A stretch of 64,000 nt of DNA from assembly GCA_951799425.1 (NCBI GenBank), contig OX637396.1:40725901-40789900 (forward strand), written 5' to 3'. Below the pieces are notes generated by a model. That model did no database searches. It saw only the letters and a program-made list of their open reading frames with translations, and was not told where the DNA came from. Of the stretch, positions 5,369 through 58,919 are shown piece by piece (position 1 is the first letter of the stretch; each line of letters begins with the position of its first letter). The translations under genes were made by a program, and so were the position numbers. This DNA is from Ilex aquifolium (lineage: Eukaryota > Streptophyta > Magnoliopsida > Aquifoliales > Aquifoliaceae).

Positions 5369-5420
5369 TTAGCAATGCACCACGTGCGTTGTACATGAAT
5401 AATTTTTGTACATAAAAATT
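5369..5420 (-). mobile_element. Helitron-like 3' terminus
   Basis: Read on the minus strand the sequence ends ...GCATTGCTAA followed by host T, fitting the Helitron CTRR|T rule. A short hairpin (GCAC/GTGC around a 3-nt loop, 5377-5387) lies 8 nt inside the end. The 5' end was not located, and the BBE relic does not resume to the right. The element is therefore partial or its far side was deleted. Confidence 0.5.
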
Positions 5421-5509
5421 GATATAATATATTAGTATATGTTTATTTGAATTAAATATTATCTCAAATTTATCAAACTTAATGTTTCATTGCTCATATT
5501 CTATTATAA

Positions 5510-28197: not shown

Positions 28198-28244
28198 GAC
28201 TCTTGTTTTTGGTTTTTGTGTGTAGAACATGAGAAAACATCGGC

Positions 28245-31110: not shown

Positions 31111-31515
31111 TGTGGATATGTGTGAAAGTTATTCAAAACATCATTTGCGTTACAACTTATTTCATATGCTCTAAAGAATCTTTTAGAGTGTAATCAAATT
31201 CAATATCCCACTATTAAAATCACTTGGCCTTATGGGAGGGCTAGCTGTAGGATTCACATAGAAACCTACTAGTAAGGCCAAAATGAATATATTAATAGAT
31301 TAGAAATGATTCTCAATTACCATATACTCTTCTTCACATTAAAAGTGATTATCAATTCTCTAGATGACAGATGGAATACTCTGCCCATTTTTGAAGAAAT
31401 TATTGGGATTAACTAAGGTCTTTACATACACCAATCTATTGAAGTTGTTCTTGAAGTATTTTCTTATCCCAAATCCTTGCTCGGGCATAACTCCTCTTGT
31501 TGTCATTTACTCCTA

Positions 31516-33815
31516 CTAATTAGTGCATACGTGCATGGCACGTGAACCATTTTAAAATAAATTATATATTGCACCTAAGTAAACATTGACGATTAAACAA
31601 TGGAATGAGCCTTATATCCTGGCCCATATTAGCAGTTAACCAACTCCTGTGAGTCTATCACATCTAAATGGTTTGTGTTCCACAATTTCGCCATCTTCTC
31701 ATTCTATTGCTGCCAGAGTACATATCCTCTTCGAAAAAAGTCTAATATTAGGTGTTAAAGACCACATGTGTTTATGATAAAATATGAAGATTTTTGTGGT
31801 TGCTTTGTTTTTTCATGCATTCTGTTAAACAAGTAAAAAATCTGAAGCTATATTTTCCTTGGATTTTTTTCTGAACTTTATTTGCAATCTAGCATCCTGA
31901 CACACACTACAATCAAAGCAGACGACTTTGATGAGTTGGATTAAAAAAAGAGGAAAAAATCAATGCCAAACCAAGTGTCTTAGAATACATGACAACTTAT
32001 AATTCCCGAAGTCCCCTGCATTACACTCAAATGAGTGTGTATATGATTTTCAACGAAAATGCAGCCAATCATGAAGAATGAGGGGGGGGGGGGGGGGGGG
32101 GGGGGAGAGAGAGAGAGAGAGAGAGAGTAGGAAGTTTTTTAAATTGAAAATAATTAAACTGTCAATCAAATTAAGCTCATTATTTTTTACATCCTAAATT
32201 GTGTATTGAATACAAATAGTATATCTTGTGACCAAATGGATAACCTATAGCCGAAAAAAAAAATACAAAAATGAAGTACAACATGAATAATAGCCTATAA
32301 AACTCTCTGATATTTAACCTAAACATAAACTAATAAATGAATTCACGAAGCAATTTATGTTTTTTAGTTTAAAACAAAAGAAAATTAAATAATCCAGGGT
32401 TTGATAGTCATTGTGGTCCAAAAATGCAACATTTTAAGCAACCACTTGTGATGGCAACGTTGCTTGACTGCAAACACCCCACACCATATTACACTGCACA
32501 CACGAAAAACTACACAACAGGATAGCATAAGAATTTTTTGATAAAAGGCTTCTAAATGTACAAACACTACTACAGAATGATGGTTCCTTACCATACTATA
32601 AGTGCCTTGCAAAAGTTTGTGTTATCAACCATCGATTGCTAAATATTTGAGAACAGGGAAGGCCAAGAATAGCAAAAAACGTTCAAGAACCTCAAAGAAA
32701 ATACATAAATAAAATTAATATGGTTAGAATGTCAGAAGTCATTATAACAAACCTCAAAGCAATTAGTCGTTCAATTAAAAAGTCAGTCGATAGAGTTGAA
32801 AATCACCTTCTTTCTTTACCCTCAATCTTACAATAGGGAAAAAAGATGGGGATTGAGCACATCAAAAGATAGAGATAAAGGCAATTACTTTGTAATTATT
32901 CAAATTCCCAAAAAAGATGTATCGTTAAGATGTTATCTTGGTTTTTCTCCACACTTGATTTTCCAATGTAGTTACATACATTACCTTTGGCCTTTCCTCA
33001 TTCAAGTCTTTGTGAGTGTTGATTTTGCATGCTCCCTCTTTTAGTGTTCCGCCCAAAGACATTCCACAATAATAACTAAAAATATTAGCGGTTGAATCTC
33101 AATGCCAGTGGAGATTTGTTATTTATAACCAAGAGGAAGAAAAACATTGTAGAAGAAAGAGACTAAAAAAACTTAATTGATAAAATGATTGGTGGATGTC
33201 AACAACGTTGACAGGGAGAAGAGAATAGGGGCCCTGTGCTTTGTAGCAAGAAGAAGAACGAAGGAGAAGACGAAATAAAAGAGAGGAAGAGAGAGAAAAG
33301 ATAGCTTATCAGTTGGTTGAGTAGTGCAGAAGAAAATAGGAAAATGAAGAGGCATATTAGGTGGGGTTTGTTCATAGAGTTTTATTTAACAATTTTGTTT
33401 ATATATTTAATGCATCTAATGATGTCAATAACTAATGTTGGAATAGCAAAAGTTCAAATAGTTACAGAGTAGCTTTAGTGCCTGAAAACTATTGAGATGA
33501 TTTTCGGTTACATTCATAACATGATCTAAAGTTCACTTTATAACTTCATGCCAAGGAAGATTGGTTAAGGAATTAGTTTTTTTTATTAAGATTATTGTAG
33601 TCAATCAAAATCACATTTAGGTCATATTTATAATATTTATAAAGAAGATAATCAAAAGACAAACAATGAATTTATTAGTTGAATTAATGTAACCAATAAA
33701 TATATGAGAACTCTTGAAACAAGGATAAAGTAGACATTATAGAATTATTAAAGGGCAAATAAGAAAATTAAAGGTTTTCTCTTTAAGCCACTTTTAGAAG
33801 TAGTATATATATAGA
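31516..33815 (-). mobile_element. non-autonomous Helitron inside a BBE relic
   Basis: On the minus strand the insert starts TCTATATATATACTAC directly after host A, and ends near ...GCACTAATTAG before host T. A hairpin (ACGTGC/GCACGT, 3-nt loop, about 31526-31540) lies a few bases inside. The uninterrupted host sequence survives at 44570-44580 (CTCCTATATCCGT), so the A|T insertion point is visible. The exact 3' end is ambiguous by 4 nt (CTAA or the following TTAG). About 2.3 kb, no Rep/helicase seen; a poly-G/GA tract lies inside. Confidence 0.75.
32082..32128. repeat. (G)n(GA)n tract
   Basis: About 24 G followed by a run of GA. Lies inside the Helitron. Confidence 0.9.
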
Positions 33816-34216
33816 TATCCGTATCCCTATAATTGATATGGGCTTCTCTCGGATTCTTTGAAACATAGGGAGCCACATACTTGTAAAACCTTCGGAACCA
33901 ATTCATATGCCCTTCCCCTCATTCCATCCAAAGCAATCGGTATTCAAATTGGTAGTGGAGGAAAGGGGTTACAGATTCTAAAATCTCGTTCATTTTTCCA
34001 ACATAAGGACTCAACTCCAGAAAAGGAACGCTAACTTCTTCCTCCTTCAACTTTTCCCATATTCTTTTTAGTGCACTTTCAAAAAATGGTGTTTTCACAT
34101 AATCTGTTTTCACTTTAAAGTTTCTTTTATAGATGAAAGTCCAGTTCAACAATATTTCAAGTGAGTTGGCAACTATACCTTCGTAAAAGAGGAATGCATC
34201 AATCCATCTCACTTCT

Positions 34217-35238: not shown

Positions 35239-36828
35239 CTACATCTTAAGAGACAGAATACTCTGCTCATCTCTGAAGAAGTTATTGGGGTCAACTAAGG
35301 TCTTCACATCCACCAATCTATTGAAGTTGTTCTTGAAGTATTTTCTACCCCAAATGCTTGCTTGCGCATAACTCGCCTTCTCATCATTTACTCCTATATC
35401 TATATCCCTATAATTGATATAGGCTTCTCTCGGATTCTTTGAAACATAGGGAGTCATATACTTGTAAAGCCTTCGGAGCCATTTCATATGCCTTTCTCCT
35501 CCTTCCGTCCAAAACAACCGATATTCAATTTGGTATAAGTTCCCGGCTCTGTGGGGGAAAGGTGTTGCAAATTCTGAAATCTTGCTCATTTTTCCACCAT
35601 ACGGAGTCAACTCCAGAAAAGGAACGCCAACTTCTTCTTCCTTCAACCTTTCCCATATTCCTTCGAGTGCACTTTCAGAAAGCGGCATCTTCACGTAATC
35701 TGATTTTACTTTATAGTCTCCTTGAAAGCTATAAGTTCTGTTCAGCAATATTTCAAGTGGACTGGCAACACTACTTTCGAAAAAGAGGAATGCTTGGATC
35801 CAGGTCACTTCCCCACAAGTTTCTCTCGCCAAACCAAACTGTGCAAACTGTTCTCCTGTCACAGAAAGTAATCCATCAACGCCACCAAGGAATAATGAAA
35901 GGAGTACAGCCTCTACTGTTTTGTTCCCAATTACTTGACTAGAATTCTCGAGCATAAGGACAATTCTTATATAAAGATTTTCGTCAACCTTGTCGGCTAC
36001 AGATTGCCATTGATGCACAACCTTGGATGCATTGTTTTCCAATGTCCTAGTTATCCTGCAAAAAGTTACATTCTCTGGAACGGTAACTAAGTTTAGTTTC
36101 CATGCAAAAATGACGCCAAAACTAGCACCTCCACCTCCTCTTATAGCCCAAAAGAGGTCTTCCCCCATTGATTTTCTATCAAGAATTTTACCATTGACAT
36201 CAACTATTCGAGCATCAATAACATTATCAGAAGCAAGCCCAAATTTACGTTGGAGTATACCAGATCCTCCCCCACTAATGTGGCCACCGACACCAATGGA
36301 AGCGACACCGGCTGCTGGAAAGGAAAGTGTTTTGCTCTTGTTTAGAATATTGTAATAAAGTTCACCTAGAGTTGCGCCAGCTTGAACCCACGCCGTTTTT
36401 TCTTCAACATTGACACTGATTGATCGCAAATTAAATAGATCCAGGACGACAAATGGTACCTTAGCAACGTAAGAAAAACCTTCATAGTCATGTCCACCGC
36501 TGCGAACTCTTATCTCTATATCATGTTCTCGACAACAGCAAATAGCTACTTGAACGTGAGACTCATTCAATGGTGTGATTATGGCTAAAGGTTTTGGAGT
36601 GCTGAGTGTAGCGAATCTTAGGTTTTGTATGGAAAACTTCAAAATGGGTAAATAGGAAGGGCTTGTTGGTGTGTAAACAACTTGAGTGGAATTCTGTATC
36701 TGACTAGAGAGACACTGAAGAAAAGCTGTAGTGGTATCAGCTGATGAAGTTGCTGATGATAAAATTGAGAAGAGAAAAACGAAAGCAAGTGAAAGGCAAG
36801 AAGCCATTGGGCTAATCATCTTCTTCAT
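35239..36828 (-). CDS. berberine bridge enzyme-like FAD oxidase, copy 3
   Basis: Intact single-exon paralogue (540 residues from the ATG at 36861; start set at Met12, with Met19 possible). Signal peptide, His124 in SGGHDYEG, Val186 in place of the second FAD-binding Cys, Glu446, Tyr484 and the C-terminal [11 protein letters not shown] motif are all present. It differs from copy 2 mainly in the substrate-domain stretch (RIVLMLENSSQV here, RVTLRVDNSSQV in copy 2). Its 5' end lies at the outer limit of the inverted duplication: the arm begins at 36846. The TATA box is CATAAATA. Expected location is the secretory pathway or apoplast. Confidence 0.9.
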   Translation of the reverse strand: MKKMISPMASCLSLAFVFLFSILSSATSSADTTTAFLQCLSSQIQNSTQVVYTPTSPSYLPILKFSIQNLRFATLSTPKPLAIITPLNESHVQVAICCCREHDIEIRVRSGGHDYEGFSYVAKVPFVVLDLFNLRSISVNVEEKTAWVQAGATLGELYYNILNKSKTLSFPAAGVASIGVGGHISGGGSGILQRKFGLASDNVIDARIVDVNGKILDRKSMGEDLFWAIRGGGGASFGVIFAWKLNLVTVPENVTFCRITRTLENNASKVVHQWQSVADKVDENLYIRIVLMLENSSQVIGNKTVEAVLLSLFLGGVDGLLSVTGEQFAQFGLARETCGEVTWIQAFLFFESSVASPLEILLNRTYSFQGDYKVKSDYVKMPLSESALEGIWERLKEEEVGVPFLELTPYGGKMSKISEFATPFPHRAGNLYQIEYRLFWTEGGERHMKWLRRLYKYMTPYVSKNPREAYINYRDIDIGVNDEKASYAQASIWGRKYFKNNFNRLVDVKTLVDPNNFFRDEQSILSLKM

Positions 36829-36875
36829 GACTCTTGTAATTGGTTTTTGTGTGTAGAACATGAGAAAACATCGGC

Positions 36876-36883
36876 TATTTATG
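36876..36883 (-). promoter_or_regulatory. altered TATA box of BBE-like gene 3
   Basis: CATAAATA, one base from the canonical box of copy 1. The same variant is found at 50094-50101 and 58865-58872. Confidence 0.5.
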
Positions 36884-37565
36884 CTACTTTAAGTACTACT
36901 CCCTTAGTAATACTCAAAGATTACTTAGTTTAAGGGGCTATTGAAATTTTCATGGTTGACATTTATTGTTCTGACAGGTGGTAACTGAGTCATATAGATT
37001 GTGTTCAACTGAAACCCATTTTCAAATATATATATGTGGGTTTGGTAAGAAGTTTTGTCAAATTATTTGTGGCTATTGTACATGCATGTGAAGGTCATTC
37101 TTCAATGGGGGCCCATATGGGATAAATGATAGTGGTTGCAGATGGAGCTGAGCTGCCCAACACTAAATGGGGCCTACAACGAAAATTTAAATGACAACTT
37201 TTATGTTTTAAAATAATATGAATAATATTTTATAATTATTTAAATCCCATAATTTATATATTAAAAATTATATTATTGACTTTTGAGATAAAAAATTAGG
37301 CTTAATTAAATTTGGGTCCTAAAATTCCTTTTAGGGTCCTAAAAATAAAAAGGGCCTGACTTCAACATGAATTTTAAAATTTTTATTCAGGATCTAAGAA
37401 CAAAATTAGGTTTAATGGAACAATTTTTTTTCAAACCCTAAAAATAGAATTAGATTTAATTTTTTTGAGCCTTGATTAAATTTAATTGAACCTCCTAAAA
37501 ATGAGGCCTCCAAAAATTTGGAGGCCGAAAGCGACGGCGTCAATGGCCTAGCCATTGAGCCAGCC

Positions 37566-38096
37566 AAGGGCGGAGGGAGGCTAGGGCCAGGGTGGGCACG
37601 TGCCCCCCTCAAAAAAAAAAAATTTTTTAGTTAAGTATATATATTATAAAATTGTATAATATATTATTTGTGCCCACCCAAAATCCAAGATAAAAATATT
37701 AGACCCACATTATTTATCCAAAAAATTTTAAAAATTAAGCCCATTTAAAACAAAAAAAATTGAGTCCACTATTATCTACCCAAACTTATTAAAAAATCAA
37801 ATATTTGACCTATCACAATCCACCCAAACCTATTAAAAAAAGTGAAAATTGGAAGCGAGTCCCCCTAGATGTACTTGTTTGGAGATGAGTCCGGTAAGGA
37901 AACTTATAAGGGACTAAGTCCATGTTTAAAATTATATGTAATGATTTAAGTCCACTTTTTTTTTTAATCTCAAAAATACCCTTCTTTGAAAGGAAGTTAA
38001 ATTAATTTCCTATTTTGGAAATTGTTATCCCTTAATTCAAGGTCAATTAAAATATACCAATAAAATCTTCATCATAAATTTAAAATTCAAATTCAA

Positions 38097-38165
<69 letters not shown>

Positions 38166-38271
38166 ATCTCCATCATAAATTTAAAATTCAAATTCAAAAC
38201 TCTCTTTCTCTCTCTCTCTCTGTATATATATATATCAAATTCAAAACTCTATCTCTCCCTCTATCTCTCTC

Positions 38272-38306
<35 letters not shown>

Positions 38307-39693
38307 AATTCATGTTACTATTTTTTTTATTATGTTACTGTTCATGTTACTACTTTTGTTGAGTATGTTACTATTCATGTTCCTATTATTTTGAGCATGT
38401 TACTGTTTTTGTTAAGCATGTTACTACTATTATTTTACTAAATATTAATATTCAATATTACTATTTGTTTTGTTTTTGAATATTACTATTTTTTGTGTTT
38501 GAATGGTACTATTTTTTGCTTTTGAATTTGAGATAAATAATTATTGTTAAGTATGTTACAATTTTTGTTGAACATGTTACTGTTGTTATTTTTTAAAAAT
38601 ATTAATATTGAATGTTTCAATTTTTTTTTATGTTTAAATGTTACTATTTTTTGTGTTTAAATATATTATTTTTTGTATCCAAATCATAACTTTTTTTGTA
38701 TTTGAATGTTACTATTTTTTATTTTTGATGTTACTATATATATATATGGATATAGATAGATAAGAGAGAGGCAAAATTTTAATGTTAGTCAAACTCTTAA
38801 CCTATATATGGATATAGATAGATATGAGAGAGAAAAGATTTTAATGTTAATCAAACTCCTAAGATTTAGGAGTTTTTAATTTTTAGTTTTATTTCACTTC
38901 TAAAGGGAAGGGATAGTATAGTAAAATTGACAAAAAACGGACTTCATAACAAATAAGTTTCCTTGACGGACTTAAGTCCAAACAAGTCCATATAGGGGGA
39001 CCGGCATCCAAATTTCCCTTAAAAAAACAAAACTTTTAGTCCAACATTAAAAACAAAATTTTTGGCCCAACATTAAAAACAAAACTTTTGGCCCACCCAC
39101 CATTAAAAAACAAATTTTTTGGCTCACTTGACTAAGAGGAGAAAAGAGTATAAAATCCCTAGTCGCAACTAAATAAAGAATAATTTTACTACGGATTTCT
39201 GATTGTGCGCATTGATAGAAAATTAGTGAAAAATTAATTTACATTTAATTCATATACAAAATTTTAGTGATTTTTAAAAATTTTATATTTTATTGAAATA
39301 TATAATTAGGTTAAAAATGTACTAATTTTATTTTTTTTTTTGTCTTTTTGTTAGAATTTTGTTTCGGCTAAATAAAAATTGAATTTACTATTTCACAATA
39401 ATTTTGTTTTGATTCTTATTTTTTTGTTATTCTTGAACTGAATTTTTTTGTATCAATTTCGGCTAAGTATTTTTTTATACCAGTTATATTTTGTCCCCTC
39501 ATAGACATTCATGGTTTCGCCCCTGACAATATATACTTTTTTTTGGACATTTTTTTATGTTAAATGGACTTCATTTATCAAATATAATATAATAAATATA
39601 AATATCTTATATAGTGTGATTGATTAGAAGAAAAAAAATTAGAGTACTTAATTAAAGTGTCCACCCTGACCAAAATTTCTGGCTCCGCCCCTG
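37566..39693. mobile_element. hAT-like 2.1 kb element inserted in arm 1
   Basis: Flanked by GAGCCAGCC on both sides (37557-37565, 39694-39702; the true duplication may be 8 bp). The left end reads AAGGGCGGAGGGAGG, and the right end reversed CAGGGGCGGAGCCAG, so the inverted termini are imperfect. The empty site is seen in arm 2 near 49420. AT-rich interior, no transposase seen, and invaded by the MULE at 37842-39018. Confidence 0.8.
37842..39018 (+). mobile_element. short non-autonomous MULE nested in the hAT-like element
   Basis: An 1177-bp element with the termini of the 9.3 kb MULE (GTGAAAATTGGAAGCGAG at left; right end reversed GGGAAATTTGGATGCCGG). Flanked by TTAAAAAAA on both sides (37833-37841, 39019-39027). 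The interior has CT/TA microsatellites (38100-38163, 38205-38300) and a GTTACT-rich block, with no genes. Confidence 0.85.
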
Positions 39694-39702
39694 GAGCCAG
39701 CC

Positions 39703-41383
39703 CTTATATGGAGTAAAAACAAACCACAACATAATTGTTCTTCGACACTTAATTTTATTTAATAAAATTCTCTAACCATTATCATCGTTAACGTAAGCTA
39801 TTAGTTAGCTTACGAAAATTACTTATGTATTGTTTAATTCTTTTTTTTAACTTTTTTATGAGTTTTAATATTAATTTTAATTTGATTTTTACCTAACACT
39901 AGAATGTTTATCTGACAGATCAGAGATATTGACATGTTACCTACTTGAAGGGATGTACCTCTAGTGCACGTAATCAAAATAAGAAGCAAAAGGTACAATA
40001 TATAATATAAAAGAAGATAGACTTCAATAAGTTCATCCGACAGTTTCAAATAAATTCATGTAACGGCCACCAATATTTTTTTTAAAATCATTTACATTGC
40101 ACCGTACCTTCCGACATGGATTACCCCTAATAAACAATAAAGAGGGACCGAGTAAGCCCTTAAACTAGTAAAAGAGGACTTGATAAAAAATAAAAACTAG
40201 TAAAAGAACAAAAATAACTTCAATTTTATCTAGCAAAGTCGCCGTTAAATTTGGCCTCTGATAATTTAAAATTTTCTAGTTCAGTATTTCTCATATTTTT
40301 TAAGAGTCAACTACCATTGTTTCTTAGATTATATGTTTTAAATTCGCTCGAGTTATAGCCAATATCCGAGTTCGATGGAGTAGCCAGCACAAATCTAAAC
40401 ACTTTGTAACAACAACAACAACAACAAAAAAATGCCAACTAATGAGCTACTCAAGCCCACTTCTAAAATTATGTTTACCCACTTCAAGTTTTGAAAATAA
40501 GTTTTATATTTTTACATGACCCTCTATAGTTTATACCTTTACAATTTGATCTTAATTTTCTTTCATGCATTGACTATTTATTTGAACACAGTTGTTAAAC
40601 TTTTTGTAATATATAGAAAAATGATGAAATTTAGTGCTACTCGAATAATTATGAGATAAAAAAAATTTAGCTTAAATTGTTGATTGTTTGATGAATTGAT
40701 CTCAAATTGCTTTACATCTAATCTTGATAAGTTTAAATTATTTTTAATATTTTATTAAAATAAATATTTATATAACATATTGTGTAAAAGTTGATTTTAG
40801 CAAATTCGATATAATTAATAATTTCGCATAATGATTGCTCTGGAATAATGATAGATCATTAAAAAGAAAATTTTTTGTTATGTCCATATTTGGCCCCCTG
40901 AAGAAATAATTCTGGCACCATTAGGTGTGGCTTAAGACAATTTGAGGCTTAAAGTGAAAACATTAAATAAGGTTTTTTTATTTTATTTTTAGTACTAATT
41001 TTTTTAAAAAAAATTAATTTATTTTTAATTTTTTATGTGAGAGAGAGATAGACGTTAAGTATATAACATCTCAATCTCTTTTAGCTTCTATCCCCATATA
41101 ACATCTCAAGCAATGTATATACATAAATGTAAAATGAAGAAATGAACTAATATAAATGCAAGGAGCAAGCATGAACCACTGGCTACTGGGAAGAAGATGG
41201 CCCCGTCTATGGCACTTCTATTCTTGGTCCCACCCACCAAATCTCGGAGTGTGGTGAGTGTTTTACAATGAGGTTTGTCAATATATGCACTGTCCTACTA
41301 CTATTAAAAAAAAAAAAATTGAGTGCAAGAATACCAAAATAGACGGAGATTCGAAACAGTAACACAATCATGTATTATAATAA
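39703..41383. other. arm 1 upstream block with copia LTR remnant, no gene seen
   Basis: 39703-39900 is the copia-LTR-like tail seen in other modules. 40075-41383 has no partner in arm 2 but partly matches 29221-30060. A GGCTTAAGACAATTTGAGGCTTAAAG-type relic lies near 40930. Nothing coding recognised. Confidence 0.55.
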
Positions 41384-42683
41384 AGGGTTAATTACAAAAT
41401 GCCCCCTCCAAGTTTGGGTCGTATTTCAATCAGCTCCTCGTAGTTTTAATTTCGACAATCTGCCCCCTTCAAGTTTTAACATATTTCAATCACCCCATTG
41501 CCGTTATTCTTGACTGTCTAAATTAATAGAAGTCAACATTAACACCATTAAAAGATATTTATACCCTTCAATCCAAAAACAACCCAACCCTCCGCAAGCA
41601 ACAGTGCAAAAACCCAGTAAAATCCAACTTTCCCTCAATCGATGATTATCCACTCCCTCCCCCTTCGGTGAAACCGAAACCCTCAAAAGCCTCAAAGTTT
41701 CGATCAATCCTAAACTCGGGTGAAAAAATGATGCCAATGGAGAACACCCTAGGCATCGTTCAAAGGTCTATCGATGCAATCGCGACAAGAGCTTCTTCCA
41801 CCACCTCGAGTTTGTTTGGATGACCGGTGAACGAAAAAGCTATAAATGGCAAAGGAACTTCGAACGAGGCATTCGAAACTGTATTACTTGGGTTGCTATT
41901 CACAGAGGGGTGGGCAAGGGTTACTTGGTAGAAGTGGGGATTGGGGGTGTGTGGATAACTTTTAGTTTTTGTTTTTTTCGGAGGTGGGTTTTGGGGTGCT
42001 GTCGGCATTGGGTATGGGGGTTGGACTGCTGGAGCAGGGGGTGGGGGTTCGAGGGAACCGATGGAGCAAGGGTTTGGGGTTGGGGGAACGACGGAGCAAA
42101 AGATGGGGGTTGGGAGACCGCCGGAGCAAGAGGTGGGGGTTGGGGGCACTGTCGAAGTACAGAAAGGGGGTTGGAGGCTCACCAGACCCATTTCGATGTC
42201 AATGGATTCTCTCTCCCATTTGCTATGGGTCTTGGGAATTTTACAGCAACCATGGTGGCTAAGGTTAGTAGATAACATTTGCAGTGGGCTTCTTCTTTCT
42301 TGATTTTCTCTTTTCCTTTTGGTTGGTTGGTAGCTGGTGGGTGTTGCTTGATTTGGTAGTTGTTGCTGGTAGTGGTGGTTGCTTGGTGAAGGATGTGTTG
42401 AGGGCGACGGAGGTGGTGGTAGTTGCTTGGTGAAGGCTGTGTTGGGGGCGGTGGCGTTGGAGCTGGTCGCCGATATGGACAAAGGAAGGAGAAAGAAAAA
42501 AGAAAATGAGTTGGGTGTCAATAAAGTCTTAAGGGTACAAAAGTCATTTTACAAATTTTCTTCAACTAATTATATAATTTAGTTCATTTAAAACTTGAAG
42601 GGGACAAAATGTTGAAATTGAAATCAGAGGGAGTCGATTGCAACATGACCTAAACTTGAAGGGGGCAAATTGTAATTAACCCT
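41384..42683. mobile_element. 1.3 kb TIR element, possibly carrying captured sequence
   Basis: Inverted termini AGGGTTAATTACAAAATGCC and, reversed, AGGGTTAATTACAATTTGCC continue for about 35 bp. A 7-bp duplication ATAATAA flanks it (41377-41383, 42684-42690). The interior is unusually GC-rich for this window. It holds a 253-codon proline-rich minus-strand frame (41760-42521) with no recognised domain, so host-sequence capture is possible. Part of it is repeated in arm 2 (48568-49030), so it predates the inverted duplication. Confidence 0.65.
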
Positions 42684-43344
42684 ATAATAAAATACAATGC
42701 CGTTTAAAATCTTTAAACATTTTTATAATTGATTAATTATAAGTTAGATTTCTCACTAATTTTCTACCAATGCGTACAATCACAGAGTCTGCAATAAAAT
42801 TATTTTTTATATAGTTACAAAATATAGTTGAAATCATTATCGATTTTATCGAGAAATTACATATTTAACATAGCATAAAATGCTTTTGGGTTATAATATG
42901 AAGCTTTTGCATCCAATCATGTTTTATTAGGTATAGACTACAAACAAATCGAAAAATAACAAATTATAACTACAAAAATTATTTTTAAAAGATAGGCAGC
43001 ATTATATTAAATAGAATAGAAATATTATATTTTTTTTAGTATATATAAATAGATCACCATATTTACATCTAATTTACTCAATCCAAAAGTAAAACATTTG
43101 TTTTAGGGGGGCTAATGAGCCACTAATTTTTTTACAAGATCAAAAAAAAAAAAAACGAATAATTTATTGGGAAAAAAAGAGACTAATACCATTAGGTAAA
43201 TTTTTAAAATTTAGAGGGAGGGAGGGGGGGCAAATATATTACATTGAATAATATTTTGGGGTCCTCATCAAAAGTAAACCAAAAGTGAGAGGGGACAAGT
43301 GCCCACCGTAAACCAATGTAGCTCCTACTATATCTTAAAGAAAC

Positions 43345-43715
43345 TTTTCATCATGGAATATGAAGCAATTAATCACATCTCGCTCTAGTATCGAAGCAAA
43401 ATATGATCAATGGGCATATACAGCTGCTGAAATTTCAGGATTGCGATCACTTTTTCATCATCTTCAAATTTTATTATCAACAATTATTATTTGATGTTAT
43501 AATTATCAGGTTCATCTCTCTTGCCTCCAATCCTACCTTCTATTCTCGAACAAAACATCTTGATGTTGACTATTACTATGTCCGCGAAAAAGTGATTTTC
43601 AAAGAATTGAACGTTTGTTATGAAAATCTAATTGTCAATATTTTTACCAAAGAATTATCAATTTCTTATAATGGTTCGTCCTCGACCCAATATTTTATGG
43701 AGTGTATTAGACCAT
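43345..43715 (+). mobile_element. Ty1/copia fossil: RNase H end of pol
   Basis: Same fragment as 30240-30612 (SRTKHLDVDYYYVREKV and the following tail); broken. Sits between the TIR element and the BBE relic. Its inverted twin is 47536-47906. Confidence 0.8.
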
Positions 43716-44421
43716 TCAATTGTGTCCTTATGATAAGTCCAGCATGATGATATGTAAATGGAGAACGAAAGGCAAGATATGATCCAAACACGATATCTCG
43801 ATAAAAAAATATATGCACATATGTACCAATTTCTCTCAACGGATTATGTGCCAATACAAGTTTGTTATTAAACTCGACTGGTCGGGTGGATTTACCCAGT
43901 TACACTGAAATATGTTGTATTTATCGGTATTATTTGAATCATTCAAGTAAAGAACTATTCTGTCCCGACGGTACTTACTAGATTTGCATGAACCGAGTGA
44001 TCGTGGCTAATCGCACGGGCTGAATCTCTTTTATAAAATGAAAATAAATGGCACTAAAAATATCTCTCCCTCTCTCATCTTTTTCACTCGCAGTCGCACA
44101 GAAAGCCAGGTAATTGTTTTGAGATTCAACTGGATTTTTGAGTCCCTACAATCAGACTACTACATCTATATGTGTACATGTGGATATGTGTGAAATTTAT
44201 TCAAAACATCATTTGCGTTACAACTTATTTCATATGCTCTAATGAATCTTTTAGATTCTAGTCAAATTCAATATCCCATGGGAGGATAGCTGTAGGATTC
44301 ACATAGAAACCTACTAGTAAGGCCAAAATGAATATATAATAGATGATTGAATTTTATCAAATTAGAAATGATTCTCAATTACCATATAGTCTTCTCCATA
44401 TTAAAAGTGATTATCAATTCT

Positions 44422-44978
44422 CTAGATGATAGATGGAAAACTCTGCTCATTTTTGAAGAAATTATGGGGATCAACTAAGGTCTTCATATACACCAATCTA
44501 TTGAAGTTGTTCTTGAAGTATTTTTATACCCCAAATTCTGGCTCGTGCATAACTCCTCTTGTTGTCATTTACTCCTATATCCGTATCGCTATAATTGATA
44601 TAGGCTTCTCAAGGATTCTTTGAAACATAAGGAGCCACATACTTGTAAAACCTTTGGAACCAAGTCATATGCCTTTCCCCTCCTTCAGTCCAAAGCAACC
44701 GATATTCAAATTGGTAGTGGAGGAAAGGGGATACAAATTCTAAAATCTCGCTCATTTTTCCAACATAAGGACTCAACTCCAGAAAAGGAACGCCAACTTC
44801 TTCCTCCTTCAACTTTTCCCATATTCCTTTTAGTGCACTTTCAGAAAAGGGTGTCTTCACATAATCTGTTTTCACTTTAAAGTTTCCTTTATAGATGAAA
44901 GTCCCGTTCAACAATATTTCAAGTGAGTTGGCAACTATACCTTCGTAAAAGAGAAATGCATCAATTCATCTCACTTCT
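44422..44978 (-). pseudogene. BBE-like relic, C-terminal third
   Basis: Uninterrupted version of the relic at 31360-34216: KTDYVKTPF, WEKLKEEEVGVPFLELSPYV, PHVSKNP-like and family C-terminal sequence, with frame changes near the C-terminus. It stops at 44978, where the BBE 3' flank of the next unit begins. Positions up to 44802 belong to arm 1 of the inverted duplication. Confidence 0.85.
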
Positions 44979-46034
44979 TATCACGTGACCGATGTGTGAT
45001 TGAATCCGAAACAAATTTTTTATCAACTTTCTTCTTTATGTATACAATAAAAAAAAGTTGTTAGAAAATCATCATCCATATTGGTTCGAAGTTTAGTTTT
45101 CATAACATTCATGACCAATGAAGTAAAATATGAAGTGGAAACAATAGTAGAAAGTGCATGTATAAATATCTATAGTGAAAATAAATTAGGCACAAGTCTA
45201 GAATTTACCAAAAAAAGGGGGTGGGTTTTCCTAATTTACCCATGAAGTTTTTAATGGAATAATCAAAATGGATGATAACAGAGTAGGAATACCAGTTAGA
45301 CTATAGTGCTGAAAAGTTATATTGAAGTAATATAGTCTTATTCTATAGTCATAGGAGACTATTTTATAGATGGTGCCTGGAGTAGTTGTATGGAAAGATT
45401 AAAAGCACTTATCATAGAAATTTTCCTGAGAGTAATATCTTAGCACAATGGACCTCCTTTCTCAAATAATATTACTACAGATATATAAAAGGGTTCTGAA
45501 AACTGAAAAGTGCAGGGGGGGCATGGCCCCCCGGCCCTGTCCTAGTTCCGTCATTGGACAAAGATATTCAATCTTAAACCATGCTTCCGATCCTTTCCCC
45601 CCCCCTTTTCTGGGAAATATTGCTCCAACTCATGCTTATATGATGGGTTATATATTCAACTCTCCTCTCCCCTCCTCTCCTCTCCTCTCCTCTCCTCTCC
45701 TTTTCTCCCCCCTCCCCTCTCCAAAAAAGATAATGAGTTTGTATGGTAACTCTTCATGACACATGTAGATCAAGTAATAGAAGAGAGTACAATTTATCCA
45801 AAACATCATTTGCATTACAACTTATGTCATAATAGTACTTATAAGTCATCCTTATGCTATAAAATACAGAATCTTTTAAATTGTAAACAAGTTCAATATT
45901 CCATTGTTAAATTCACTTGGCCTTATGGGAGGCTATATGATTCACATAGAAACCTACCAGTAAGGCCAAAACAAATATAATAGTAGATGATTGAATTTTA
46001 TTAAATTTGAAATTCTAAATTACCATCTAGTCTT
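44979..46034. repeat. 3' flank of truncated BBE copy 4
   Basis: Shared BBE 3' flank, lying in the spacer between the two inverted arms. TC-rich tract at 45661-45720. No gene. Confidence 0.8.
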
Positions 46035-46428
46035 CTACATCTTAAGAGATGGAATACTCTGCTCATCTCTGAAGAAGTTATTGGGGTCAACTAAGGTCTT
46101 CACATCCACCAATCTATTGAAGTTGTCCTTGAAGTATTTTCTACCCCAAATACTTGCTGGCGCATAACTCGCCTTGTCATCATTTACTCCTATATCTATA
46201 TCCCTATAATTGATATAGGCTTCTCTCGGATTCTTTGAAACATAGGGAGTCATATACTTGTAAAGCCTTCAGAGCCATTTCATATGTCTTTCTCCTCCTT
46301 CCGTCCAAAACAACCGATATTCAATTTGGTATAAGTTCTCAGCTCTATGGGGGAAAGGTGTTGCAAATTCTGAAATCTCGCTCATTTTTCCACCATACGG
46401 AGTCAACTGCATATAAGGAACGCCAACT
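46035..46428 (-). pseudogene. BBE-like copy 4, truncated at the inversion junction
   Basis: Only the last ~131 codons remain, from VPYMQLTPYGGKMSEISE-like sequence to the C-terminus ([17 protein letters not shown]). An in-frame TGA replaces the CGA codon of the paralogues near 46270. The C-terminal part resembles copies 2 and 3. The segment next to the break (GTCAACTGCATATAAGGAAC) matches copy 1, which suggests gene conversion or a mosaic origin. Homology ends at 46428, where filler and then the inverted arm begin. Confidence 0.85.
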
Positions 46429-46448
46429 GCATATATTCATATTATAAT
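46429..46448. other. filler at the inverted-duplication junction
   Basis: About 20 bp between BBE copy 4 and arm 2 belong to neither. The 12-mer CAACTGCATATA spans the break (46424-46435) and also occurs 20 bp earlier (46404-46415), where it is native sequence. This looks like a locally templated insertion. Confidence 0.75.
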
Positions 46449-46829
46449 AAGAAGTTGGTGTTCCTTTTCTGGAGTTGAGTCCTTATGTTGGAAAAATGAG
46501 CGAGATTTTAGAATTTGTATCCCCTTTCCTCCACTACCAATTTGAATATCGGTTGCTTTGGACTGAAGGAGGGGAAAGGCATATGACTTGGTTCCAAAGG
46601 TTTTACAAGTATGTGGCTCCTTATGTTTCAAAGAATCCTTGAGAAGCCTATATCAATTATAGCGATACGGATATAGGAGTAAATGACAACAAGAGGAGTT
46701 ATGCACGAGCCAGAATTTGGGGTATAAAAATACTTCAAGAACAACTTCAATAGATTGGTGTATATGAAGACCTTAGTTGATCCCCATAATTTCTTCAAAA
46801 ATGAGCAGAGTTTTCCATCTATCATCTAG
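46449..46829 (+). pseudogene. BBE-like relic, inverted copy of 44422-44802
   Basis: Plus-strand copy of the relic in arm 1, cut at the junction. Retains SPYVGKMSEIL-like sequence and the C-terminus. Non-functional. Confidence 0.85.
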
Positions 46830-47535
46830 AGAATTGATAATCACTTTTAATATGGAGAAGACTATATGGTAATTGAGAATCATTTCTAATTTGATAAAAT
46901 TCAATCATCTATTATATATTCATTTTGGCCTTACTAGTAGGTTTCTATGTGAATCCTACAGCTATCCTCCCTTGGGATATTGAATTTGACTAGAATCTAA
47001 AAGATTCATTAGAGCATATGAAATAAGTTGTAACGCAAATGATGTTTTGAATAAATTTCACACATATCCACATGTACACATATAGATGTAGTAGTCTGAT
47101 TGTAGGGACTCAAAAATCCAGTTGAATCTCAAAACAATTACCTGGCTTTCTGTGCGACTGCGAGTGAAAAAGATGAGAGAGGGAGAGATATTTTTAGTGC
47201 CATTTATTTTCATTTTATAAAAGAGATTCAGCCCGTGCGATTAGCCACGATCACTCGGTTCATGCAAATCTAGTAAGTACCGTCGGGACAGAATAGTTCT
47301 TTACTTGAATGATTCAAATAATACCGATAAAGACAACATATTTCAGTGTAACTGGGTAAATCCACCCGACCAGTCGAGTTTAATAACAAACTTGTATTGG
47401 CACATAATTCGTTGAGAGAAATTGGTACATATGTGCATATATTTTTTTATCGAGATATCGTGTTTGGATCATATCTTGCCTTTCGTTCTCCATTTACATA
47501 TCATCATGCTGGGCTTATCATAAGGACACAATTGA

Positions 47536-47906
47536 ATGGTCTAATACACTCCATAAAATATTGGGTCGAGGACGAACCATTATAAGAAATTGATAATTCT
47601 TTGGTAAAAATATTGACAATTAGATTTTCATAACAAACGTTCAATTCTTTGAAAATCACTTTTTCGCGAACATAGTAATAGTCAACATCAAGATGTTTTG
47701 TTCGAGAATAGAAGGTAGGATTGGAGGCAAGAGAGATGAACCTGATAATTATAACATCAAATAATAATTGTTGATAATAAAATTTGAAGATGATGAAAAA
47801 GTGATCGCAATCCTGAAATTTCAGCAGCTGTATATGCCCATTGATCATATTTTGCTTCGATACTAGAGCGAGATGTGATTAATTGCTTCATATTCCATGA
47901 TGAAAA
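47536..47906 (-). mobile_element. Ty1/copia fossil, inverted copy
   Basis: Arm 2 twin of 43345-43715; RNase H end of pol, broken. Confidence 0.8.
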
Positions 47907-48567
47907 GTTTCTTTAAGATATAGTAGGAGCTACATTGGTTTACGGTGGGCACTTGTCCCCTCTCACTTTTGGTTTACTTTTGATGAGGACCCCAAAATAT
48001 TATTCAATGTAATATATTTGCCCCCCCTCCCTCCCTCTAAATTTTAAAAATTTACCTAATGGTATTAGTCTCTTTTTTTCCCAATAAATTATTCGTTTTT
48101 TTTTTTTTTGATCTTGTAAAAAAATTAGTGGCTCATTAGCCCCCCTAAAACAAATGTTTTACTTTTGGATTGAGTAAATTAGATGTAAATATGGTGATCT
48201 ATTTATATATACTAAAAAAAATATAATATTTCTATTCTATTTAATATAATGCTGCCTATCTTTTAAAAATAATTTTTGTAGTTATAATTTGTTATTTTTC
48301 GATTTGTTTGTAGTCTATACCTAATAAAACATGATTGGATGCAAAAGCTTCATATTATAACCCAAAAGCATTTTATGCTATGTTAAATATGTAATTTCTC
48401 GATAAAATCGATAATGATTTCAACTATATTTTGTAACTATATAAAAAATAATTTTATTGCAGACTCTGTGATTGTACGCATTGGTAGAAAATTAGTGAGA
48501 AATCTAACTTATAATTAATCAATTATAAAAATGTTTAAAGATTTTAAACGACATTGTATTTTATTAT

Positions 48568-49030
48568 AGGGTTAATTACAATTTGCCCCCTTCAAGTTTA
48601 GGTCATGTTGCAATCGACTCCCTCTGGTTTCAATTTCAACATTTTGTCCCCTTCAAGTTTTAAATGAACTAAATTATATAATTAGTTGAAGAAAATTTGT
48701 AAAATGACTTTTGTACCCTTAAGACTTTATTGACACCCAACTCATTTTCTTTTTTCTTTCTCCTTCCTTTGTCCATATCGGCGACCAGCTCCAACGCCAC
48801 CGCCCCCAACACAGCCTTCACCAAGCAACTACCACCACCTCCGTCGCCCTCAACACATCCTTCACCAAGCAACCACCACTACCACCAACAACTACCAAAT
48901 CAAGCAACACCCACTAGCTACCAACCAACCAAAAGGAAAAGAGAAAATCAAGAAAGAAGAAGCCCACTGCAAATGTTATCTACTAACCTTAGCCACCATG
49001 GTTGCTGTAAAATTCCCAAGACCCATAGCA
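48568..49030 (-). mobile_element. partial TIR element, inverted copy
   Basis: One terminus (AGGGTTAATTACAATTTGCC) and about 460 bp of the element at 41384-42683. Cut at 49030 by the deletion in arm 2. A 101-codon frame here is the truncated twin of the proline-rich frame in arm 1. Confidence 0.75.
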
Positions 49031-50093
49031 AATGAATTTATTGGTGGCCGTTACATGAATTTATTTGAAACTGTCGGATAAATTTATTGAAGTCTATCTT
49101 CTTTTATATTATATATTGTACCTTTTACTTCTTATTTTGATTACGTGCGCTAGAGGTACATCCCTTCAAGTAGGTAACATGTCAATATCTCTGATCTGTC
49201 AGATAAACATTCTAGTGTTAGGTAAAAATCAAATTAAAATTAATATTAAAACTCATAAAAAAGTTAAAAAAAAGAATTAAACAATACATAAGTAATTTAC
49301 GTAATCTAACTAATAGCTTACATTAACGATGATAATGGTTAGAGAATTTTATTAAATAAAATTAAGTGTCGAAGAACAATTATGTTGTGGTTTGTTTTTA
49401 CTCCATATAAGGGCTGGCTCACTGGCTAGGTCATTGACGCCGTCGCTTTCGGCCTCCAAATTTTTGGAGGCCTTATTTTTAGGAGGTTCAATTAAATTTA
49501 ATCAAGGCTCAAAAAAATTAAATCTAATTCTATTTTTAGGGTTTGAAAAAAAATTGTTCCATTAAACCTAATTTTGTTCTTAGATCCTGAATAAAAATTT
49601 TAAAATTCATGTTGAAGTCAGGCCCTTTTTATTTTTAGGACCCTAAAAGGAATTTTAGGACCCAAATTTAATTAAGCCTAATTTTTTATCTCAAAAGTCA
49701 ATAATATAATTTTTAATATATAAATTATGGGATTTAAATAATTATAAAATATTATTCATATAATTTTAAAACATAAAAGTTGTCATTTAAATTTTCGTTG
49801 TAGGCCCCATTTAGTGTTGGGCAGCTCAGCTCCATCTGCAACCACTATCATTTATCCCATATGGGCCCCCATTGAAGAATGACCTTCACATGCATGCACA
49901 ATACCCACAAATAATTTGACAAAACTTCTTACCAAACCCACATATATATATTTGAAAATGGGTTTCAGTTGAACACAATCTATATGACTCAGTTACCACC
50001 GGTCAGAACAATAAATGTCAACCATGAAAATTTCAATAGCCCCTTAAACTAAGTAATCTTTGAGTATTACTAAGGGAGTAGTACTTAAAGTAG
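49031..50093. repeat. arm 2 upstream block, no gene seen
   Basis: Inverted copy of the BBE 3 upstream block: copia-LTR-like tail (49260-49390), the GGCCTAAA-type relic (49400-49810) and promoter-proximal sequence. It joins the TIR element remnant at 49030 through about 5 bp that match neither side (GAATT). Confidence 0.7.
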
Positions 50094-50101
50094 CATAAAT
50101 A
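50094..50101 (+). promoter_or_regulatory. orphan BBE promoter (CATAAATA)
   Basis: A complete copy of the BBE promoter and ATG (50116) with no coding sequence behind it: homology stops at 50131, a few bases into the gene. It points at the Helitron and unrelated DNA to the right. Confidence 0.6.
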
Positions 50102-50132
50102 GCCGATGTTTTCTCATGTTCTACACGCAAAT

Positions 50133-52944: not shown

Positions 52945-53935
52945 ATAGTTATTTGGTAACGTTTTCGTTTTTATGTTTTTTTTTATAAAAAAAATAGAAC
53001 TAAGTTTTGTTTTTTTTGTGATAAAAATTAAAAATCTAAAACATGTTTGGTAGTCACTCATATTTAAAAAATTGTGAAAACAAAAATAAAAAACATATTT
53101 GGTATTATATCAAAAAATCACCACCCAAAACCACGACCCAACCCCACTGACCACCCAACCCCCACCACCGAAACCCACCCCCTACCCCACTGACCACCCA
53201 ATCCCACCACCGAAACCCACCCCCAATAGCCACCACCGAAACCCACAACCCACCCAGCCACCACCGAAAACCAGCCACCCAACCCACCCCCCCAACCCCG
53301 AAACCCACAACCACCCAACCCCCACCCCCATCCCCATCCCCGAAACCCACAACCACCCAACCCACCCCCCAACCCCGAAACCCACAGCCACCCAACCCCA
53401 CCCCATCCCCGAAATCCACATCCATCCAATCCACCCCCCATCCCCGAAAACCCACCACCACCCAAACCCACCACCACCAACCAACCCCACCACCACTCTC
53501 CAAAATCCATCACCACCACTAAAATAAAGAAGGTTGAGAGAGAGAGTGAGAGCGACAGAGGGAGAGGGGGGGCTGGAGATGGCATCTGGCTTCCCTTCGT
53601 CTTCCTTCGGCTTCGTCTTCAGCAGAGAGAGAGAGAGATAACAGAGATCTGAGAGATGAAAAGAGGGTTGCCATTTATATACTCCAGAAAAAAATTCATA
53701 TTTTGTTGCTAAGGAAGATCGAAGCCCAGACCTCTTTAATTGACTCGCGCGTGTTTGGTTTTTTGATGTTTTCAAAAACATCATTTTAGATGTTTCTATA
53801 TATGGACCTTGTTTTTGAAACAGAGCAATTAAAAAAAAATAAAAACATTCACCAAACATGTTTTTTTTTTTTTTTTGGCCATAAAATGAAAACAAAAACA
53901 AAAAAAAACGAAAACATCAAGTTACCAAACGGGCC
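52945..53935. mobile_element. ~1 kb TIR element with a proline-codon repeat
   Basis: Left end TTTGGTAACGTTTTCG. Right end reversed GGCCCGTTTGGTAACTTG, followed by GATGTTTTCG. Similar MITE/hAT-like termini are common in plants. The subterminal parts are poly-A/T rich. The centre is a CCCACC-type repeat followed by a GAGA-rich segment. No target duplication fixed. Confidence 0.5.
53110..53520. repeat. C-rich degenerate minisatellite (G-rich on the minus strand)
   Basis: Irregular repeats of CCACCACCGAAACCCACC and CAACCCACCCCC. The extreme composition gives long but meaningless frames on both strands (Pro-rich plus, Gly/Trp-rich minus). The minus strand has many GGG runs. Confidence 0.85.
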
Positions 53936-54533
53936 CTTAGATATTAAAATTTATTTTTTTACTAACTGAGATGAAAATTTACTATTTAAAAATATAGGTG
54001 TCATTTTAACTAATAACATTCATTTAAGGGCTATTAGTTGATAAAATAGGAAGAAAATGATTTATTAGATTTTTGTTAGTCTAATTATCGATAATAAAAA
54101 ATTTATTATTTATTAAACTAATTTAACTTAACAAAAGACTATCAAATAATAGAATAATTGGCAAATAAATAATTTTTAAAGTTGATTAGAGTGATTGGAA
54201 ATAGTATATAAAAAAATAATTACATAGTTTTGTTACACATGGTAAGTTCGAAGACAAAAATAGTAATATTATTAAAGAAATAGGTCGGTTTCACATTAGT
54301 ATGTAAAAAATAAAAATAAAAATTGGATTTTATTGAACATAAATCTAAAAGCTTTCCTATCAAACTTTTAGGAGCCCTAAAAATAAAATTGGATTCGATT
54401 AAACATAAATATGAAAATTTTATTTTAGGAGCCTGAAACCCAAAATTAGACTTTAATTAAATCTGAGTTTGAAAATTTTATTTGGAACTCTGAAAATAAA
54501 AGTGGATTTAATTGAACATGGACATAAATATTA
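53936..54533. other. AT-rich intergenic, no gene seen
   Basis: Contains CCTAAAAATAAAATTGGATT-type units also seen at 56090-56190 and in the BBE upstream blocks. These are probably pieces of one older element split by the MULE at 54534. Confidence 0.45.
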
Positions 54534-56066
54534 GGAAAATTTGGAGGCCGGTCCCCATATATGTACTTGTTTGAACTTAAATCCGTCAAGGAAAATTATT
54601 TATTATGAAGTCCGTTTTTTTGTCAACTTTACCAAACTATCCATTTCCTTTAGAAGTGGAGAAAAACTAAAAATTAAAAACTCTTAAATTTTAGGAGTTT
54701 AACTAACATTAAAAAAATTTCTCTCTCATATCTTATCTATACTATATCCATATATAGGTTTTTTTTTTTTTTGGGGGGGGGAGGGGGGGGGGGTAAGGGG
54801 AGGGGGATGGGGGATTGAACCCTTGACCTCAAGAAGACAAAGTTTTTACAAGACAAGGAGTACCATTGGACCAAAGACTCATTATAGGTTAAGATTATAT
54901 ATGTGTGTGTGTGTGTGTGCAACATTAAAAATAAAAAATAGTAACATTCAAATACAAAAAAAAAGTTAATATTTAAACACAAAATAATATCATTTAAACA
55001 CAGAAAAATAGTAACATTTAAATATAAAAAAATAGTAACACGTTCATTCAATATTAATATTTAAAAAAATAACAATAGTAATATGTTCAACAAAAATAGT
55101 AACATACTTAACAAAAATAGTAGCATGCTCAACAAAAACAGTAACATGCTCAACAAAAAAAAAATAGCAATATGAAAATTTGAACAAAATTGAAAATAAA
55201 AATAGTAGCATTCAAACTCATAACCAGAGGAAGAAGCCTCCAAGTTTTCAAAATTTTCATTATTTTTTGCATTCCTAATTTCACAATGTGATTCATTGTT
55301 ACTAAATTAAATGATATAGGTTTCAATTTTTTGGATCTTTTGTTGTGCAATACAATCGAAAAATGCTTGATTGTGTTACTTGTGGGAAAAAGTTGATGTT
55401 ACTATGAGAAAAAAAAAATTCATTTTTACATATTCGATGTCTTGACATTCACAAGTGGTGATGAATGCCCTAATTCAACTGACGATTATGTGTTACTACT
55501 CTAAATAATGTAATTTTTCGATTTGTGGACTGTATTTTATGAAAAGTAAGGGAAAATTATTGTTACTGTGAAGGAAAAAATATTTCATTGATGTTACTGT
55601 GTAAAAAAATATATCGTTAATGTTACTGTGCAACATATATCTTCCTGAGTTTTGTTAAAGTCGTTGTGTTACTGTACATAAAAATTTGATGTTATTGTGA
55701 AGAAAAATATATATGTTACATTACAATTTGTAATTGTTATTGTGAATATTTGCATTTATTATTGAATGAGATGATCTTCTTCTAGAGAGAGAGAGAGAGA
55801 ATATAAATTTCAATTTCAATTTAGAAGTAAATTAAAGGATAATAATTTCTAATTTAAGAAATTAATTTAAAGCTTATTTCAAGATCTTTAAAGTTTCTAT
55901 AATTGAACACAATAACACTGTTAATGATATTTTTGGAATTTAAAAAAATATTGGACTTAAGTACTTATTAGTAAGATAAAAAAACGGACTTATCACAAAA
56001 TAAGTTTTCTTGACGGACTCAAGTCATTAATAAGTACATTCAGGAGGACTCAGTCCCAATTTTCAC
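54534..56066 (-). mobile_element. short non-autonomous MULE
   Basis: 1533 bp, reversed relative to the 9.3 kb element. The left end is GGAAAATTTGGAGGCCGG and the right end reversed is GTGAAAATTGGGACTGAG. Perfect 9-bp duplication TAAATATTA (54525-54533, 56067-56075). The interior has many AGTAAC/GTTACT motifs (54940-55740), a G-rich tract (54772-54815) and a short CA/GT microsatellite near 54900. No genes. Confidence 0.85.
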
Positions 56067-56389
56067 TAAATATTATAACTCGGGCCTTAAAAAAATTGAG
56101 CTAAATTGAGTCTGAGCCTAAAATTTTTTAATTGGAGCCTTTAAAATAAAATTGGACTTAATTAAACATAGATCTAAAAATTTTGTTTGGGCCCTAAGTT
56201 TGGGGCCATAGACAAAGCTTTTAGCTGCTTATGCATTGGGTCGGTTCTGATTCAACCACTGAATCACCCTTAAAAACTTAGTTGATATTGCTTATCAATT
56301 CAACCAGCTTAACAACGACGACTTTGTGCGGGTTTGCTCTTCTTTTAAAGATAGAGCAAGAGGTGATTTGTTGGCAGGTGTCTTTATAA

Positions 56390-57858
56390 GTTAAAATTGA
56401 GAGTGAGTCCCCCTAGATGGACTTATAATGACTTGAGTTCTGAAAGGAAACTTATTTGAGGATAAGTCCATGTTTAAACTTATATGTAGGTACTTAAGTC
56501 TACTTATTTTTTAAATCTCAAAATTACCCCTAACGGTGTTAGTTTTGTCCAGTTTTGGAAAGTCACATAGGTTAGATCATTAAAGTATATATGGAAACCC
56601 TTGATTGAGTTATATATGTAAACCGTTTATTAAATATTATGATAATTAACGGAAGTTTTATATGGAAGTTATATATTCTGATAGTTATATATGGGAAGCT
56701 TAATGTACGAATAAATTGTTGGTATATTAAGTCAAAATCATATCACAAAATTTCCTTAACAACAGTAATGCATAATATAGGGAGGCTGAACAATACCTAG
56801 AAAGTTCAGTAATACGAATGTTAATATATAGTAACATTCATGTTACTATATGATTGAAGTTACAATTAAGTTCGTGTTACTAGTACAGTCGTGTTATTAT
56901 ATTGACACTAATGTTATTATAGTGAATTTTAACATACAATTGCAAACATTGAGATGTATATTATGTAACATACACTTTAATATTCACAGTAACATCAAAA
57001 CTTTGTGCTCAGTAACACATTTAATTTTACAAAATACAAGACAATAGTTTTTTTATAGTAACATCAACTTTCGAATGATTTTAGTAAAAATACGATTTAC
57101 AAATTAAAAATTTACAAAATAACGAGTAGTAACACACAATCGACAGTTGAATTACGACACTCAACACCAATTGTGAACATCAAGACATCGAAATTCTGAA
57201 CTCCATTTTTCGGTCCACGTACAGTAACATGAACTTTTTTCACAGTAACACAACCAAGGAATACTCGATTGTTTTGCGCAACAAAAAAATCAATAAAATT
57301 GAAATCTATAACACTTTAATTTAGTACTAATGTATGAGTTCTCTTGAATCTTGGTTACAAGGTTAATGCCTACTTTGATAGAATTAAATCTCTAATTGTT
57401 ATTACTTTTTTATCATGTTACCATTTTTTTGTGAGCATGTTACTATTTTTTTAGTGACATGTTACTGTCTTTGCTAAGTATATTACTATTATTATTTTTT
57501 AAATATTAAAATTTTAACGATGGAGTCCAAAATAAACTAGAATAGTAAATTAAAATTGTATTTTATGGAACGTAATGAGTTTGAAATTTGAATATGAACG
57601 GTTTTTGGTAAATGTCGGTTTCTTGTTTTTCGGATAAGGAAACATTGTGGCTTGGAAGATTGTAGCCAGATTTGAAGGCAATTATGAAGGAGATGTATAT
57701 GGCTGGTTATTGTGTCCATAAACGTTATTTATAACATTTCTACAGGGAATGGTTACAATAGTAAAATTGACAAAAAACGGACTTAAAACTAAATAAGTTT
57801 CATTGACGGACTTATCTCCAAATAAGTCCATATAGGGGGACCGACCTCCAAATTTCTC
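56390..57858 (+). mobile_element. short non-autonomous MULE
   Basis: 1469 bp with left end GTTAAAATTGAGAGTGAG and right end reversed GAGAAATTTGGAGGTCGG. Flanking TCTTTATAA and TTTTTATAA (56381-56389, 57859-57867) agree at 8 of 9 bases. The interior has AGTAAC/GTTACT motifs (56800-57490) and a block near 57570-57720 like 19440-19600 of the 9.3 kb element. It is therefore probably a deletion derivative of that family. Confidence 0.8.
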
Positions 57859-57867
57859 TTTTTATAA

Positions 57868-58872: not shown

Positions 58873-58919
58873 GCCGACGTTTTCTCATGTTCTACACACA
58901 AAAACCAATAACAAGAGTC

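Follow-up and report, generated by a model that had tools for sequence, protein, structure and literature searches.

How did a tandem gene array come to carry a nearly identical inverted copy of part of itself, and could the resulting palindrome act on the genes around it? The locus lies in a 64-kb stretch of Ilex aquifolium DNA (the window, with a G+C content of 32.1%), and what we find there looks like a real inverted duplication, recent and of a known kind.

The array and its inverted duplication

Judged by its predicted gene content, the window holds BBE-like FAD oxidase genes arranged in tandem. Three intact genes, U0 (1016-2635), U1 (26608-28230) and U2 (35239-36861), occupy the minus strand, and Pfam domains PF01565 (FAD_binding_4) and PF08031 (BBE) were found in 3/3 of them. 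U2 encodes 540 aa and is read leftwards, away from the first arm of the duplication. The only full-length copy on the plus strand, U4 (58887-60509), aligns end to end and has one in-frame stop, at codon 146, ahead of its terminal stop, so that it is either a pseudogene or affected by a sequencing error. U3 (46035-46427, minus strand) is a truncated BBE gene of which the final 131 codons are left; it has 92% identity with the U2 protein and is interrupted by the second arm. Smaller BBE pieces lie at 5229-5426, 31366-31516 and 33808-34215, and a relic of the C-terminal part (44428-44977, minus strand) is found at the inner end of the first arm, with an inverted copy at 46451-46823. Elsewhere, ~2.3 kb of sequence (31516-33814) splits a BBE relic whose counterpart in the first arm is unsplit at 44577.

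Solved relatives of U2 include MaDS1, cannabinoid synthases and reticuline oxidase, the nearest solved proteins being 8ate and MaDS1. Double covalent attachment of FAD, through a His and a Cys, is a feature of a subset of BBE-like oxidases. The FAD-binding His of the SGGHDY motif is kept in U0, U1 and U2, and the Cys of the second bond is absent: where 8ate and MaDS1 have Cys, U2 aligns with Val, and the same place is Val in U1 and Ile in U0. Outside the BBE genes, the window contains pieces of a Mutator-like transposase at 11773-13500 (Pfam DBD_Tnp_Mut, MULE) and two diverged, internally repetitive stretches, 20651-22075 and 8335-8843, that are alike at ~65-77% identity by self-BLAST. An Rfam scan gave 0 matches at gathering thresholds.

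The arms were paired by self-BLAST and a repeat search of the window. Arm 1 (36846-44802, plus strand, 7,957 bp) contains a BBE promoter, a hAT-like element, an older insertion and the BBE relic; arm 2 (46449-50131, minus strand) is a ~3.7 kb inverted copy of it that is without the hAT-like element and without a further 2,141 bp. The two match in three ungapped inverted blocks, of 2,586 bp with 10 mismatches (42217-44802/46449-49034, 99.6% identity), 382 bp with 7 mismatches (39694-40075/49039-49420) and 720 bp with 8 mismatches (36846-37565/49412-50131). Overall, the blocks are 98.2-99.6% identical and hold 25 mismatches in 3,688 columns, a total into which 9 arm 2 positions (49412-49420) enter twice. 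An ungapped match of 2.6 kb at 99.6% is far beyond chance. These blocks bear out the original prediction of a large, recent inverted duplication, whose arm coordinates proved exact and which had also held that indels would be almost absent apart from two steps; none occurs inside the blocks. The single constant coordinate sum that it described survives in part, as the sum is constant inside the blocks but takes three values, 91251, 89114 and 86977, each step between them being 2137, as predicted for both differences.

Between the arms lies a spacer of 1,646 bp (44803-46448, plus strand), matching the 1.65 kb expected. It continues the array unit, with the end of the relic, the downstream region and a BBE 3' fragment, and closes with 20 nt of filler (46429-46448). 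Both ends of the duplication fall in BBE sequence, as had been claimed: the outer end is 16 bases into the open reading frame beginning at 36861, and the inner one is in the BBE relic. The far end of arm 2 (49412-50131) carries on the plus strand a BBE promoter and the first 16 bases of the reading frame, pointing rightwards and outward; what would follow of the BBE gene beyond 50131 is missing.

Two equal steps and the donor arm

The outer of the two steps is a hAT-like non-autonomous element of 2,129 bp (37565-39693). It is flanked on both sides by the 8-bp target duplication GAGCCAGC, which is single in arm 2, and the uninterrupted insertion site can be seen both in arm 2 and in unit U1. 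Target site duplications of 8 bp are the rule for hAT elements. The ends of the element read CA(A/G)GGGCGGAG, with short terminal inverted repeats CAAGGGCGGAG / CAGGGGCGGAG, such that it starts with CAAGGGCGGAG and closes with the inverse of CAGGGGCGGAG. Apart from low-complexity frames, no stop-to-stop frame of at least 75 aa was found in 37565-39693; lacking a transposase-like frame, the element would be at most non-autonomous, and we therefore call it hAT-like only. Scattered fragments resembling it occur at 54533-57860, among them an inverted pair (55291-55584/57043-57335), perhaps from a decayed relative.

The inner step is a segment of 2,141 bp (40076-42216) that is lost from arm 2, where 4 nt (49035-49038) stand in its place. 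U1 retains 40129-40865 at 29256-30027, which identifies the difference as a deletion in arm 2. Arm 1 also holds an insertion of unclassified type relative to U1 (40866-43172), and since both arms carry its right part, it is older than the inverted duplication. None of these three features is assigned a strand. We take the exact equality of the two net 2137-bp steps to be a coincidence, because similarity between the two segments is limited to short, weak matches (the best by E-value is 28 nt at 89%, E = 2.6e-5) and they arose differently. The idea that they are copies of one element was rejected on the same matches and on the breakpoints, an 8-bp target duplication in one case versus a deletion with a 4-nt filler in the other.

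Which arm was copied can be read from the surroundings. Arm 1 runs on at both ends into sequence collinear with U1/U2 (the U1 counterpart lies at 28.2-31.5 kb), whereas homology is lost beyond both ends of arm 2, its inner end meeting U3 across 20 nt and its outer end stopping at 50131. Arm 1 is thus the donor and arm 2 the inserted copy. We were able to compare 21/25 arm differences with the other units, the remaining 4 (42336-42700) being without a counterpart there. Ten of the 21 changed in arm 2; another 5 changed in arm 1, and for 6 the outgroups left the direction undecided through conflict, a gap or a third base. The promoter block has 8 differences; arm 2 accounts for 7 and arm 1 for 0, and 1 is unplaced (7/7, p = 0.016, two of the seven being placed by U1 alone). 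Outside this block, where 3 changes fall in arm 2 and 5 in arm 1, there is no arm 2 excess. With 0 of its own changes among those placed, the arm 1 promoter looks conserved, which is consistent with arm 1 serving a working gene.

Divergence also rises outward, from 10/2586 near the centre to 15/1102 in the outer blocks (Fisher p = 0.0018). This unevenness is not accounted for by a single event alone, without later conversion or selection, and later conversion is one possibility for the lower central divergence. A trace of methylation was sought as a C-to-T bias and set aside, since C:G to T:A changes (5/10 in arm 2, 2/5 in arm 1) are too few.

Junctions and a proposed origin

At the inner joint, CAACTGCATATA occurs twice, at 46404 and 46424, as a local direct repeat of 12 nt; corresponding repeats measure 11 nt at the arm 2 deletion and 6 nt at the outer joint. 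As a background, random sites were drawn in two sets, 3,000 from 42-51 kb and 3,000 from the entire window. Repeats of at least 12 nt were found at 0.8% and 1.5% of these sites, respectively, those of at least 11 nt at 1.6% and 2.4%, and those of at least 6 nt at 36% and 39%. By these frequencies, the inner joint and the deletion are unusual, and the 6 nt at the outer joint are no evidence. The inner break falls at homologous BBE positions, 46428 in U3 and 44798-44802 in the relic, beside the shared AAGGAACGCCAACT; the identical stretch next to the break measures 14 nt. That U3 had gained CTGCATATA at the break was considered and discarded: U0 has that variant at the first place, which leaves the second copy, at the joint, as the sole new one.

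The structure probably arose by a recent rearrangement inside the BBE-like tandem array, through fold-back or template switch, then closure, insertion of the hAT-like element and drift. About 5.8 kb of arm 1 (the 7,957 bp minus the hAT-like element) is present again in inverted orientation, less a further 2.1 kb, and is joined into the truncated 3' part of U3. We propose the following order of steps, inferred from one sequence. A break in U3 would have ended near 46428, and the free 3' end may have re-annealed locally, copied GCATATA and folded back. The sequence AAGGAACGCCAACT, common to U3 and the relic, would then have let the strand switch to the relic on the opposite template, from where copying would have run outward to the point at which the U2 gene starts. 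End joining would then have closed the far end. The 2.1 kb gap in arm 2 may stem from the same error-prone event. The hAT-like element would have entered arm 1 afterwards, and the arms would have diverged. Fold-back and template switching are invoked here because they explain the joint repeats and the homologous position of the break together.

Could the palindrome instead be a product of assembly, arm 2 being the other haplotype of arm 1, misjoined in inverted orientation? A divergence of 0.7% and one transposable element present in one copy and absent from the other would also fit two alleles. We nonetheless regard a misjoin as doubtful: an overlap error is expected to leave an exact shared overlap, whereas the inner joint is a 20 nt filler with a 12-nt local repeat; U3 is cut exactly at this joint; and the outer joint enters sequence that is without a match elsewhere in the window. 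A fold-back artefact in a raw read was rejected, as substitutions and two structural changes, but no indels within the blocks, separate the arms. That an inverted fragment made beforehand was inserted by plain end joining at a random point of U3, with no fold-back, is very unlikely, for although fillers of 4 and 20 nt are present here and such short fillers are usual in end joining, the inner break lies within ~4 nt of the homologous relic position, which would be unexpected for a chance site. The duplication looks like an ordinary repair-driven rearrangement.

Hairpins, silencing and known systems

At the centre of the duplication lies a tighter palindrome (45925-46972, no strand assigned), which the original prediction had missed. 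The BBE 3' regions in U3 and in the relic are homologous, and the inverted relic was set directly after U3, so that the BBE 3' fragment 45925-46428 faces the relic copy 46449-46972 across a loop of ~20 nt. RNA of this region is predicted to fold with 451 pairs at -642.5 kcal/mol from the plus strand and with 448 pairs at -627.4 kcal/mol from the minus strand, compared with -238.3 kcal/mol (SD 6.6) for 15 dinucleotide shuffles and -211.4 to -218.3 kcal/mol for three control stretches of equal length. Exact 21-mers of the palindrome occur at 110/1600 positions in U0, 154/1603 in U1, 198/1603 in U2 and 79/1603 in U4. The nested hairpin could yield double-stranded RNA only given transcription across 45925-46972; if any hairpin matters, it is a better candidate than the long arms with their 1.65 kb loop.

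According to the original prediction, long hairpin RNA transcribed from the arms might give rise to small RNAs that target the BBE family. The anatomy does not support this claim, though it does not refute it either. A silencing locus, at which a transcribed inverted repeat gives hairpin RNA and from it small RNAs acting on the family, is unlikely here. Inverted copies homologous to a gene family are present, and the anatomy comes closest to such a locus in the nested hairpin, with its fold of -642.5 versus -238.3 kcal/mol for shuffles and the 21-mers that it shares with intact genes. The arm 2 promoter copy also holds 573/684 of the 21-mers of the U2 promoter, which is arm 1 itself, along with 115/757 for U1, 58/891 for U4 and 9/745 for U0. 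Both BBE promoter copies, however, face outward from the inverted repeat. The one at the left end of arm 1 belongs to U2, a minus-strand gene, and is therefore directed leftwards; its copy at the right end of arm 2 would be directed rightwards. Hairpin RNA would consequently need another, inward-reading promoter. No inward gene was recognised in the lists of intronless, stop-to-stop reading frames; in the 50.1-58 kb flank, the frames of at least 75 aa on the list, which ignores introns, are short or low-complexity, and the longest, 53182-53901, has no Pfam match. This flank contains scattered fragments of the hAT-like element, and U4 reads away from the repeat. Read-through into the repeat from an unrecognised promoter is possible. 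The apparent conservation of the arm 1 promoter, with 0/7 polarised differences being arm 1 changes, also speaks against silencing.

It is likewise unlikely that we are looking at a newborn hairpin-RNA locus in its own target array, damping or methylating members in cis and in trans. If it were so, the 0.5 kb hairpin with its 20-nt loop (BBE 3' coding and downstream sequence) and the inverted U2 promoter would do the silencing, and a silencing locus would have been caught ahead of its decay into a microRNA gene. Our literature search found no paper linking berberine bridge, inverted repeat and small RNA. A young silencing locus is a possible reading of the sequence, and the structure is most likely a by-product without function.

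Rearranged or inverted copies of gene-family members also make up rice LGC1 and Arabidopsis PAI1-PAI4. The soybean CHS inverted repeats are likewise rearranged or inverted gene-family copies; in its treatment of these loci, PMC3608071 suggests that double-stranded RNA arises by read-through transcription at soybean CHS, LGC1 and PAI1-PAI4, and notes that silencing in soybean is lost together with the repeat (PMC3608071). In contrast to these loci, the promoters here face outward and the structure is known from DNA alone. Maize Mu killer, a partial inverted duplication of MuDR whose centre resisted sequencing, likewise brings kilobase inverted pieces of gene and promoter together at one locus (PMC3440606). 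It is set apart by its known transcripts and by the silencing of MuDR in crosses; in the account of it given in PMC3440606, silencing plants have short antisense transcripts from an undefined internal promoter and the long-hairpin model is left unproven. The inverted-duplication origin of plant microRNA genes, as outlined in PMC3237417, likewise starts from a hairpin made of pieces of potential targets; the stem here, by comparison, is ~0.5 kb and known from sequence alone. With regard to mechanism, inverted duplications templated by fold-back at breaks are documented in yeast, in the events that PMC11724301 describes, and there too an inverted copy lies beside the break with short templated repeats. 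Those insertions are mostly 5-34 bp versus kilobases here, a parallel in kind and not in size (PMC11724301). Silencing loci and new microRNA genes have been proposed to grow out of palindromes of this sort, and the holly locus offers a young, readable case of how tandem plant gene arrays breed them: one can still see which copy was the donor, where it was inserted, where a transposon came in later and what scars the junctions kept.
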